In this document: piece by piece, positions 7,441 to 27,706 of the stretch
How the letters are laid out: the number at the start of each line of letters is the position of its first letter
Position numbering within the stretch: the stretch's first letter is position 1
Assembly: GCA_016788585.1 (NCBI GenBank)
Contig: JAEURP010000009.1
Location: 124,001 to 188,000, forward strand
Reading direction: 5' to 3'
DNA length: 64,000 nucleotides
From: Chthonomonas sp.
GTDB lineage: Bacteria; Armatimonadota; Fimbriimonadia; Fimbriimonadales; Fimbriimonadaceae
Program-made: the position numbers and the translations under genes
The notes under the pieces: generated by a model
Told to the model about the DNA's origin: nothing
What the model saw: only the letters and a program-made list of their open reading frames with translations
Database searches by the model: none

Positions 7441-8088
7441 TTACTTCTTGCTTCGCTTTCGGCGGAGCATCGCGGCAATGCCAAGTCCGAGAGCTGCCAT
7501 TGTGCCTGGCTCAGGAACAAGGTGCGGAGACTGATTGAGGAAGCCGACTCGAGAAATATCGAGCGCTTGCGTGTCGATTGCCACCAAGTCCATGTACTTC
7601 TTGGCCCGAATGTAGCGCACTTGTCGACCGCCAAAGGTGATTGTCGAATTCCAAGTGACGTTTGGTCCAGGATTGTTCTGAGAATTGAAGGTGACGCTCT
7701 TTGAGCCGAGTAGTTGAATCTCATTGCCCATCGAGTCGATTTCGAAAACATCTTCTCGGAAGTAGATTTCGCCACTACCAAGGATCAAACCACCGAGGTT
7801 GACGCCGACCTCATTAGCGTACATGTTGCCAGCGAGGCTCTTGGCATCGTATTGAATCGAGAGGGAACCAAATCGGAGCGATCCGGGAGGTGCGCCGGAG
7901 TTATCGCCAACGTGTGCGTTTGGCGTGCTGAAGGTAATTGCATTTGCAGTCCCACCGGACGCAACACTTGCCGTGATTCCAACACTGAGCGGTCCGCCGG
8001 AAAAAATGTAGTTGTAGAACTGCACGTTTTGTGCAGACGCAATGGAAGCCCCAACTACTAGGGCTGCGGTCAATACGATTTTATTCAT
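7441..8088 (-). CDS. PEP-CTERM sorting-domain protein
   Basis: A 215-residue exported protein. It has an N-terminal signal peptide (VLTAALVVGASIASAQ), a beta-rich middle without a recognised domain, and a C-terminal PEP-CTERM tail: VPEPGTMAALGLGIAAML followed by the basic RRKRSKK. Such tails are recognised and cleaved by exosortases, giving surface or matrix proteins; no exosortase gene is in this window. It is paralogous to the next gene upstream on the same strand, sharing layout and phrases such as EVNG/YEAxxxAG, GEIYFREDVFEIDSMGNEI and the final VPEP-MAALGLG tail. A GAGG ribosome site precedes the ATG. Confidence 0.85.
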   Translation of the reverse strand: MNKIVLTAALVVGASIASAQNVQFYNYIFSGGPLSVGITASVASGGTANAITFSTPNAHVGDNSGAPPGSLRFGSLSIQYDAKSLAGNMYANEVGVNLGGLILGSGEIYFREDVFEIDSMGNEIQLLGSKSVTFNSQNNPGPNVTWNSTITFGGRQVRYIRAKKYMDLVAIDTQALDISRVGFLNQSPHLVPEPGTMAALGLGIAAMLRRKRSKK

Positions 8089-8231
8089 GGCTCTTTACCT
8101 CTTCGATACCCGAAACCGGGTCAACAACAAACAGACAGACGCAATGCACCTACCTGAACACCCTCAGTTTAGCACATGGTATGCCAATCTCCAAGAACAA
8201 TTGCAAATTTTGACCTGGTAATTTCACCGAA

Positions 8232-8261
8232 AAATGGCTACGGTAATCACCGTAGCCATTT
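8232..8261 (-). terminator. Terminator downstream of the second PEP-CTERM gene
   Basis: A perfect 13-bp inverted repeat (arms 8232-8244 and 8249-8261, loop AATC) follows the stop of the upstream PEP-CTERM gene on the minus strand and continues into T residues on that strand. The two paralogues are therefore probably separate transcription units. Confidence 0.8.
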
Positions 8262-8284
8262 GAGTTTGAGCGAGAGAAAGCGCC

Positions 8285-8923
8285 TTAGCGTCGGTTGCGG
8301 CGGCGGAGAACCGCGGCCAAACCAAGACCAAGAGCTGCCATTGAAGTTGGTTCAGGAACGATAGCTTGGTTGATTCGACCAACGGAAGCATAGTTGGTTC
8401 CTGGTGTACTGCCAGTCACAAGGTTGAACAGCTTCTTCACGCGGAGCTTGCTGTAGTTGTGCTGTGGCAAGTTGATCGAACCGTTGAGACCGAAGCCATT
8501 GTTGACCACATTTCCGCTGTTTAGAACGCCGCTTGCCGAGTTCAAGAAGAACTCATTACCGACGCCGTCGACACCAAAGACCTGTTCTTGCCAAATTACT
8601 TGACCATCACCCAAGACTTGACCGGCCACCGAGTACATGACCTTGGTAGGCGTGCCTGCGAAGTTGCTAGCCTCGTATTCCCAGAAGATCGACCCAAACT
8701 GGTTGTTACCCAAGACGCCGCCATTGGGAGTCAATAGAGTGATAGCATTGGAGCCATTGGCCGGAACGCCCAAAGTTAGAGGGACGACGGTCATGCCAAA
8801 CGTCGTGTAAGCACTTGCGTTAACACCTTGAGGTGCTGAGGGGAACGTCAAAATGTTCCAAGTTACGGCGTGCGAAAAAGCAGCGACGCCCAAACTGGCA
8901 ACAATCAATGCAATTTTTTTCAT
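8285..8923 (-). CDS. PEP-CTERM sorting-domain protein (paralogue)
   Basis: A 212-residue exported protein with a signal peptide (KKIALIVASLGVAAFSHA) and a C-terminal VPEPTSMAALGLGLAAVL tail ending in RRRNRR, the standard PEP-CTERM sorting signal. The middle is Asn/Gly/Thr-rich and probably beta-sandwich. It resembles the 7441-8088 product in length, order of motifs (QVIWQEQVFGVDGVGNEF against GEIYFREDVFEIDSMGNEI) and tail, so the pair arose by tandem duplication. Its function beyond being a surface or matrix protein cannot be read from the sequence. The same bases (AGAGCC) precede both start codons. Confidence 0.85.
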   Translation of the reverse strand: MKKIALIVASLGVAAFSHAVTWNILTFPSAPQGVNASAYTTFGMTVVPLTLGVPANGSNAITLLTPNGGVLGNNQFGSIFWEYEASNFAGTPTKVMYSVAGQVLGDGQVIWQEQVFGVDGVGNEFFLNSASGVLNSGNVVNNGFGLNGSINLPQHNYSKLRVKKLFNLVTGSTPGTNYASVGRINQAIVPEPTSMAALGLGLAAVLRRRNRR

Positions 8924-14305: not shown

Positions 14306-14328
14306 ATTAGCCATTAGCCATCGACCAT
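14306..14328. repeat. TTAGCCA heptamer repeat, short copy
   Basis: Two adjacent ATTAGCC units are followed by AGCCATCGACCAT (14316-14328). The same 13-base word recurs at 27723-27735 beside a six-copy heptamer array in the same family. The rest of this intergenic stretch to 14430 shows no gene; a GGAG ribosome site for the next gene lies near its end. Confidence 0.6.
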
Positions 14329-26212: not shown

Positions 26213-26959
26213 TTACGAGTAGAGCCGCAGGGCTTCGTCGTACTCGTCGGCGTTGTCGAAGTCCACGATGCTCGTTGGGTCGGAGTCAAGGTCGATGATG
26301 ACTTGGCCTTGGAGGACATGGCCGAGGCGGCGTTCGGCCTCGGCGACGGACATCAGGCGGGCGAAATAGCGGGCTAGGGCGCCGAATCCGAACTTGCGCA
26401 TCATCCCAAACTGGCTCTTGCGCGAGTGGCGGATGGCGTTGAAGAGGTCGCGGCCGAAGGTGAGACCCTCCGGGGTCGCGGCGAAGAAACCTCCGGAGAG
26501 TACGCGGCCATCGCGCAGGAAGATTGGCGAGGTCTCCCAGCTTGGGTAGGCCTCGCGAAAGGTCTTGAGGCGGCAAAGGCCGCCGGCATACCAGCGCGGC
26601 TCGGTGATGCGGCTGTCGAGTCGCTCGACAAAAGACCTGATCGCCTCGCCAGTGATGAACGGCATGTCGGCAGGCAGAATCACGAGCCGCTCGGTGTTCA
26701 GCATCGCGCTGGCGGCAATCGCGTTATCAACTGCCGATGTGGTCTCGTCGATCATGCCGCCGTAGTGAATGTAGCTTCGAAGGTCTTCGCCACCAACGGT
26801 GACGATCGGGCCGACACCAGACTCATGGGCGGCTTCAAGAACGATTTCGAGTGAAGTGCGGTCGCCAAACTTGGCGAGGGCCTTTCGGGGGGTCCCAAGG
26901 CGGACAGCGAGCTTATCGGGGCAAACCCCGCCGGCAACAATGGCGATTCCCCAACTCAT
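26213..26959 (-). CDS. MobA-like nucleotidyltransferase-fold protein
   Basis: A 248-residue Rossmann-like GT-A fold protein related to MobA/GlmU-type nucleotidyltransferases. The start IAIVAGGVCPDKLAVRLGTP followed by RKALAKFGDRT corresponds to the NTP-binding loop, but with an insertion and without the usual LAGGxSxRMGxDK spacing. VILPADMPFITGEAI matches the metal-binding PADxP motif. The C-terminal part ends with VIIDLDSDPTSIVDFDNADE, resembling the NTP-transferase end LDIDTPEDL. Its substrate is unknown. The ATG overlaps the lumazine synthase stop (26956-26959), so the two are translated together, hinting at a shared cofactor-related role. Confidence 0.7.
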   Translation of the reverse strand: MSWGIAIVAGGVCPDKLAVRLGTPRKALAKFGDRTSLEIVLEAAHESGVGPIVTVGGEDLRSYIHYGGMIDETTSAVDNAIAASAMLNTERLVILPADMPFITGEAIRSFVERLDSRITEPRWYAGGLCRLKTFREAYPSWETSPIFLRDGRVLSGGFFAATPEGLTFGRDLFNAIRHSRKSQFGMMRKFGFGALARYFARLMSVAEAERRLGHVLQGQVIIDLDSDPTSIVDFDNADEYDEALRLYS

Positions 26960-27642
26960 TTAGAAGGCTTGGACTTTAGCACGTTATAGACGTGTTGGTA
27001 CCGGACGCCAAGGGCTTTGGCGATCTCGGCTTTACTCATGCCTTCGGCGAACATCTTGCGCGCAGTGGCGGCTTTGTTGACGGTGCCGTTGGCGTTGAGG
27101 ATTTTGTCGGTGGACGGCGTGGATGAGGTGGACGGGGTGGACGAGGTGGACGGTTCTCCCCTCCCCCCGGCCCCCTCCCCTCGCGAGCGAAGGGAGGGGG
27201 AGTTTAGGAGCGAAACCATCTCGACTGCGCTCATAGCGGCTTCGCGGCCTTTGTTGCCCATCTTCATTCCGGCTCGGTCGAGGGCTTGATCTTGGTCATC
27301 CGGGGTTAGAATGCCCCAGGCGATGGGGACTCGAGACTCCAATTGCAGGTTCATTAGTGCGCCGGCTACATCGGCGGCGAGAAGCTTGGCATGAGCGGTT
27401 TGGCCTTGCAGGATGCAACCAAGGGCGACGATGCCGTCCACGCCCTTATCAATGAGCGCTCGGCAAGCGAGGGGGATTTCCCAACTGCCGGGCACGCTGA
27501 CGACGTCCACGTCTTCGGCGTCCGCACTTTCGAGGGTGTCCAGCGCGCCTTCGAGGAGCTGCTTGGTGACAAGCTCATTCCATCGCCCGACGACGATGGC
27601 GAACTTCTTGCCCTTGGCATCGGTTTTTCCGGCCAGTTTCAT
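26956..27642 (-). CDS. ribH: 6,7-dimethyl-8-ribityllumazine synthase with C-terminal HTH domain
   Basis: A 228-residue protein. Residues 1-147 are a complete lumazine synthase, the penultimate enzyme of riboflavin synthesis: the substrate loop VPGSWEIPLA (50-59), the catalytic His 84 in GQTAHAKLLA, and the end AGMKMGNKGREAAMSAVEMV. Family members normally stop near 155. Here a low-complexity linker (148-180, repeated STSSTP) leads to a helix-turn-helix domain at about 187-223 (ARKMFAEGMSKAEIAKALGV, then RYQHVYNVLK). The linker is encoded by tandem and inverted repeats. A TATAAT lies 10 bases before the ATG with no Shine-Dalgarno, suggesting a leaderless mRNA. Other rib genes are not adjacent. 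Confidence 0.9.
   Translation of the reverse strand: MKLAGKTDAKGKKFAIVVGRWNELVTKQLLEGALDTLESADAEDVDVVSVPGSWEIPLACRALIDKGVDGIVALGCILQGQTAHAKLLAADVAGALMNLQLESRVPIAWGILTPDDQDQALDRAGMKMGNKGREAAMSAVEMVSLLNSPSLRSRGEGAGGRGEPSTSSTPSTSSTPSTDKILNANGTVNKAATARKMFAEGMSKAEIAKALGVRYQHVYNVLKSKPSK
27110..27154. repeat. Five tandem 9-bp repeats inside ribH linker
   Basis: Five imperfect copies of GTGGACGRG (plus-strand reading) lie end to end. On the minus strand they encode the Ser/Thr/Pro linker between the enzyme and the HTH domain. The unit length is a multiple of 3, so copy-number change keeps the frame. Confidence 0.85.
27171..27200. repeat. GC-rich inverted repeat inside ribH linker
   Basis: Perfect 9-bp arms (CCCCCTCCC at 27171-27179, GGGAGGGGG at 27192-27200) flank a 12-base centre that is itself partly palindromic (CTCGCGAG). 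It encodes the Arg/Gly/Glu part of the linker and looks like an inserted dispersed repeat. Confidence 0.7.
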
Positions 27643-27652
27643 AGCAAGGGAG

Positions 27653-27658
27653 ATTATA
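27653..27658 (-). promoter_or_regulatory. -10 element of ribH
   Basis: On the minus strand a consensus TATAAT stands 10 bases before the ribH ATG. The expected mRNA start leaves a leader of about 3-4 bases. The -35 region falls within the TGGCTAA heptamer array and shows no TTGACA. Confidence 0.55.
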
Positions 27659-27664
27659 GTCGTT

Positions 27665-27706
27665 TGGCTAATGGCTAATGGCTAATGGCTAATGGCTAAT
27701 GGCTAA
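27665..27706. repeat. Six-copy TGGCTAA heptamer array
   Basis: Six perfect tandem copies of TGGCTAA (42 bases), followed to about 27737 by degenerate CAGCC/GACCAT units including AGCCATCGACCAT at 27723-27735, a 13-base word also found at 14316-14328. The array occupies the ribH -35 region, between divergent ribH and the rpsN operon. The rest of the gap up to 27780 shows no gene. Confidence 0.95.

Follow-up and report, generated by a model that had tools for sequence, protein, structure and literature searches.

Lumazine synthase (LS) is a textbook example of a cage that assembles itself, and engineers commonly use it as a display scaffold by fusing domains to its outward termini. The native enzyme, 6,7-dimethyl-8-ribityllumazine synthase (RibH), e.g. 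that of Aquifex aeolicus (1HQK), ends near residue 150-155 and carries no helix-turn-helix (HTH) domain. A riboflavin-pathway enzyme with such a domain has been described in archaea, where the riboflavin kinase RbkR has an N-terminal HTH and is a bifunctional regulator and enzyme (PMC8305020). In engineered LS display particles, a foreign domain is tethered to an outward terminus of the enzyme (PMC7369331). HTH domains are also found in Cbp1, which comprises three of them in tandem and no enzyme, and in AbrB/MazE-like antitoxins.

The gene described here lies in a window of 64,000 nucleotides, the whole stretch of DNA that was analysed, and all its coordinates are positions in this window. It encodes an LS followed by a linker and a C-terminal HTH tail (Table 1). 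The genome to which the window belongs is referred to as G000, and G001 and G004 are the public metagenome-assembled genomes (MAGs) Fimbriimonadaceae SJ46 and SJ800 of the same genus. The fusion shares with RibH the whole enzyme domain, the catalytic-site residues and the fold, and differs from it in the HTH tail. Within the riboflavin pathway the closest precedent is RbkR, likewise an enzyme fused to an HTH, although the enzyme is another one and the HTH stands at the opposite end of the chain. RbkR is not known to belong to a cage-forming family, and no homology of its enzyme part to LS is expected. The tail of the fusion is tethered to LS as in the display particles, but these are man-made whereas the fusion is natural and carries a DNA-binding-type domain.

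Cbp1 (NF040595) is a recurrent weak NCBIfam match to the HTH module; its score of 18.3 bits against a cut-off of 140 leaves the fusion, which has a single HTH, outside the Cbp1 family. The antitoxins carry the same module, roughly 45-60% identical, but at the N-terminus, with an AbrB partner and with promoters rich in ACCTAT-type sites. Such sites are absent from the LS-fusion promoter, and an AbrB/MazE domain is present in the antitoxin loci L049 and L064 but not in the fusion. In the same order as the fusion, one HTH-PdxS protein has the module on another vitamin-making enzyme, differing in its N-terminal HTH, its vitamin B6 enzyme and its occurrence in one genome only. A full-text search of open-licence papers found no described natural LS-HTH protein, in line with the sequence-only reading, which knew of none.

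The fusion gene and its two domains

Table 1. Features of the fusion locus (positions in the 64,000-nt window).
Feature	Position	Strand	Basis or remark
Fusion gene, 228 aa (LS + linker + HTH)	26956..27642	-	ATG start, no internal stop
LS domain, residues 1-147; H84/R123/K131 invariant	27202..27642	-	PF00885, alignment, Foldseek
Flexible linker, residues 148-183; repeat-derived stretch and PST-type low complexity	27094..27201	-	Low pLDDT, repeats, in-frame indels
Inverted repeat within linker	27171..27200	.	Near-identical, apparently intergenic copy at G000:C6:14108-14130
HTH domain and basic tail, residues 184-228	26959..27093	-	AlphaFold2, omega, relatives
ATGA overlap of fusion stop and start of next gene	26956..26959	-	Same in G001 and G004
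Downstream MobA-like NTP transferase gene	26213..26959	-	PF12804, 44.8 bits; synteny
TATAAT -10-like box, 11-16 bases before ATG	27653..27658	-	Conserved in G000, G001 and G004
Six tandem TTAGCCA units upstream of -10 box	27665..27706	-	Possible operator, but a generic array in G000; G001/G004 carry the palindrome GCTAGCTAtTAGCTAGC here

Every sequence test made places the protein in the LS family. Residues 12-146 score 165 bits against PF00885 (DMRL_synthase; cut-off 26.7) and 137 bits against TIGR00114 (cut-off 84.6). H84, R123 and K131, which are conserved catalytic-site residues of LS, do not vary across an 18-sequence alignment. AlphaFold2 gives the residues of the enzyme part the LS fold, and the best solved-structure matches of this model are plant, Aquifex and other LSs (Foldseek, 1C2Y/1HQK). 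The sequence-only reading had proposed a full LS in residues 1-147 with H84, and an HTH at residues 187-223; both assignments are borne out, the second by AlphaFold2 helices at 190-199, 204-211 and 215-223 (pLDDT about 93). Most of residues 159-175 in the linker have a pLDDT below 50.

One LS gene was found per genome. Since the fusion is the sole LS found in G000, which is 95% complete and also encodes ribBA and riboflavin synthase, LS activity would be expected and the fusion presumably serves riboflavin synthesis. For the same reason, every subunit should carry an HTH. LS termini point outward, and the pentamer contact residues of LS are also available from the literature (PMC7369331). By sequence alignment with icosahedral Aquifex LS (AaLS), the loop of the fusion is without an IDEA-like insertion, i.e. 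of icosahedral length, and the hydrophobic contact position Leu121 of AaLS corresponds to the polar Gln117. The proposal that each particle would display many DNA-binding units gains from the outward termini, the single LS gene and the basic HTH, whereas assembly into pentamers or a 60-mer, the HTHs facing out, is what we infer.

Predicting the HTH separately, with 35 relatives, again gave the three helices of the full-length model. In Pfam, CENP-B_N lies just above its cut-off when the tail is scanned alone, and HTH_29, HTH_23 and HTH_7 match below their cut-offs. The HTH has a net charge of +7 to +8 and a pI above 10, and the enzyme domain a charge of -5 against +7 for the HTH. Among solved structures, the closest sequence relative of the module is 2LVS (module profile, E 3e-7), a protein described as binding CRISPR repeats, and the structural matches, with weak E-values, are mostly DNA-binding HTHs. 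The tail thus combines, in sequence and predicted structure, the three-helix fold, basic surface and HTH-family similarity of a DNA-binding-type HTH. Relatives keep the recognition-helix residues RYQH..N without exception, though for RYQH the search pattern accounts for part of this conservation. Given the basic charge, the kinship with 2LVS and the mostly DNA-binding structural matches, DNA binding is most likely the role of the tail. In-frame start codons lie inside the last LS helix, G001 and G004 also having GTG codons at 143 and 149, and an additional short HTH product might conceivably arise from these internal starts.

The downstream NTP transferase gene adjoins the LS gene in all genus genomes with a match (4/4, synteny). 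In G002, another genome of the genus, a short gap separates the two genes, in contrast to the ATGA overlap at the fusion, where the NTP transferase is probably co-translated with the LS fusion.

Conservation and selection of the fused frame

The fusion is a genuine, selected natural protein whose fused frame is kept in three species. Four other genus genomes were searched, and two of them, G001 and G004, have this fusion as well; the sequence is 87% identical over the full length, with a linker 13 residues shorter and all indels in frame. The LS of G002 stops at residue 154 and has no HTH; G003, a genome only 70% complete, gave no LS match. Among 30 loci read out, all non-fusion LSs end near residue 150-164, which agrees with the earlier statement that LSs normally stop near residue 155. 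A search of the phylum for the same domain pairing, as had been suggested, was made with an HTH profile over 291 genomes and returned only the three fusions, all in members of the genus, together with two relatives encoded by other genes and two borderline matches.

Of the changes between G000 and G004 in the last 42 codons, 16 are synonymous and 2 nonsynonymous, and dN/dS (omega) is about 0.02 for the HTH and about 0.03 for the enzyme domain. Neutrality of the HTH changes has a binomial P of about 1e-8. The low omega and the ratio of 2 to 16 changes imply that the tail is translated in the fusion frame and selected. The sequence-only reading had named two grounds for doubt, that all close relatives might stop near residue 150 and that the tail might be a frameshift or assembly error. 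Two sister species carry the fusion, and the in-frame linker indels and purifying selection on the HTH speak for a real protein. Evolution has attached a DNA-binding-type module to LS as engineers do, and has kept it under strong selection.

A portable HTH module

By its sequence, the HTH represents a portable module ('RYQHVYNVL'), one that recurs on unrelated proteins. Antitoxin-like proteins of the AbrB/MazE type in Alphaproteobacteria and Chloroflexota carry it at the N-terminus, as do DUF6884 proteins and GIY-YIG proteins, the latter annotated as such on Rhizobium plasmids. In the Armatimonadetes MAG Centralia_MAG_520 (G064), the module is N-terminal on PdxS (L090:2468-3520, the same place as L040), the lyase subunit of vitamin B6 synthase (PRK04180, 513 bits). 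A related HTH is N-terminal on a PfkB-family sugar kinase in the Bacillota MAG Cu122P5bin39 (L061:1917-3146); the kinase closely resembles the KDG kinase portion of a trifunctional aldolase/kinase family. About 50 viral contigs (L136-L185) encode the module, mostly on small proteins of 60-180 aa. In these it typically stands at or near the C-terminus, often followed by an ITPIKK-type basic tail, which is the layout of the LS fusion; the viral HTH proteins tested as examples had no good PHROGs match. A mobile HTH is attached to several unrelated metabolic enzymes, and in a bolder, doubtful reading this one HTH would repeatedly make such enzymes (LS, PdxS, sugar kinase) DNA-binding.

A scan for the HTH subtype across about 85,000 species found 63 relatives, with the LS fusion in only the G001 and G004 MAGs. 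The HTH is not one of many genomic copies, as a single copy was found in G000. Part of the inverted-repeat element is common to all three fusion linkers. A simple history would be that a repeat landed between the LS and NTP transferase genes along with a small HTH gene, and that the LS stop codon was lost.

The promoters of the HTH-AbrB genes (34 upstream regions, e.g. L080, L086 and L102) are rich in ACCTAT, ACCTAC and AACCTA. Counted over all loci regardless of their relatedness, 31 ACCTAT-type sites were found against 3.8 expected, with a maximum of 9 in 200 shuffles, and none was found in 21 relatives of other architecture. These sites are probably the operator of the HTH-AbrB genes. An operator shared by the LS fusion and the HTH-antitoxins was considered and rejected, as the motif is confined to the antitoxin group and cannot be transferred.

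Candidate roles of the HTH tail

The reading favoured here, with somewhat less than even confidence, is that the fusion would act like a trigger enzyme, an LS that also binds DNA, with its own promoter region as the most likely site, as in trigger enzymes such as archaeal RbkR. The only LS found in G000 bears a basic HTH on a flexible C-terminal tether; it would be active and assemble into pentamers or a 60-mer whose HTHs face outward. Through these outer HTHs the particle would bind DNA multivalently, and the level or assembly state of the enzyme would be tied to transcription of the fusion gene and the adjoining NTP transferase gene. As in a trigger enzyme, enzyme and HTH are joined in one conserved chain, in three species and under selection. 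If the fusion binds DNA, it would offer a new means of linking the making of a vitamin to gene control, and its symmetric particle would serve as a natural model for multivalent DNA binding. A bolder form, which must be regarded as doubtful, is that the LS shell would show up to 60 sequence-specific HTHs, with assembly as the switch: once assembled, the particles would hold on to promoters, or bridge DNA, through avidity.

An FMN riboswitch (RF00050) was found in none of the 61 genomes of the order that were searched (G000 and 60 relatives), with 7 of 14 controls positive, so that another control of riboflavin synthesis would be needed. Loss of the riboswitch as the cause of the fusion is uninformative, since non-fusion species lack it too. 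Near the -35 region, 7 bases upstream of the TATAAT box, G004 has a perfect 8-1-8 palindrome of 17 bp, and G001 has a 17-bp palindrome with one mismatch at the same place. Even when two mismatches are allowed, G001 and G004 each have it at a single site, the LS promoter; a comparable palindrome is found in 0.4% of shuffled upstream regions. Its presence in both genomes is weak evidence because they are close sisters (dS about 0.25). The sequence-only suggestion of a riboflavin-pathway autoregulator is plausible: the palindrome at the promoter, present in two species out of three, is a circumstantial hint at autoregulation, and against it stand the absence of the palindrome from G000, the lack of the riboswitch throughout the order irrespective of the fusion, and HTH Pfam scores that are mostly below cut-off.

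In G000, the LS promoter has the TTAGCCA array in place of the palindrome. Tandem arrays of this heptamer also occur at 14307-14320 of the window and on the G000 contigs C4, C11 and C21. Because of these several other loci the array was rejected as a dedicated operator, and the contigs with arrays differ from those with ribBA or ribE.

The arrays at several G000 loci would fit with HTHs that bind DNA with little sequence preference or at many sites, the LS particle then being a nucleoid-tethered or DNA-bridging assembly and not a dedicated regulator. Such tethering, which is unlikely yet the best of the alternatives, would also agree with the basic HTH, with its expected multivalent outward display and with the Cbp1-type HTH relatives, which coat repeats and shape chromatin (PMC10883916). 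The strictly kept RYQH..N, biased as its conservation is by the search pattern, suggests a specific site instead. For the DNA-organising shell that had been proposed from the sequence, specific support was not found.

Small HTH folds are also reused for protein contacts, and the third HTH of Cbp1 recruits Cren7 (PMC10883916). The three-helix tail could thus have lost DNA binding and serve as a protein-contact or assembly module (docking, cargo or assembly control), but the strong basic charge and the retained recognition-helix residues make this rather improbable. Control of other genes, e.g. other riboflavin or phage-related genes, in place of its own promoter is judged slightly more improbable. 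The ribBA and riboflavin synthase genes do lie elsewhere in G000, without an FMN riboswitch, and the module is also found on phage and antitoxin-like proteins; however, the palindrome of G001 and G004 is at the LS gene only, and inspection by eye revealed no shared motif upstream of ribBA or ribE. A neutral, functionless read-through tail from a repeat insertion, to which the repeat-derived linker and narrow distribution would point, is very improbable and effectively refuted by the HTH omega and its P value, and an assembly error or frameshift, conceivable for low-complexity linker repeats that could misassemble, has a negligible probability and is ruled out by two other assemblies that share the fusion with a different linker, by the in-frame indels and by selection.

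Elsewhere in the window, at 7441-8923, two neighbouring proteins end in PEP-CTERM-like tails, VPEPGTMAALGLGIAAMLRRKR and VPEPTSMAALGLGLAAVLRRR.
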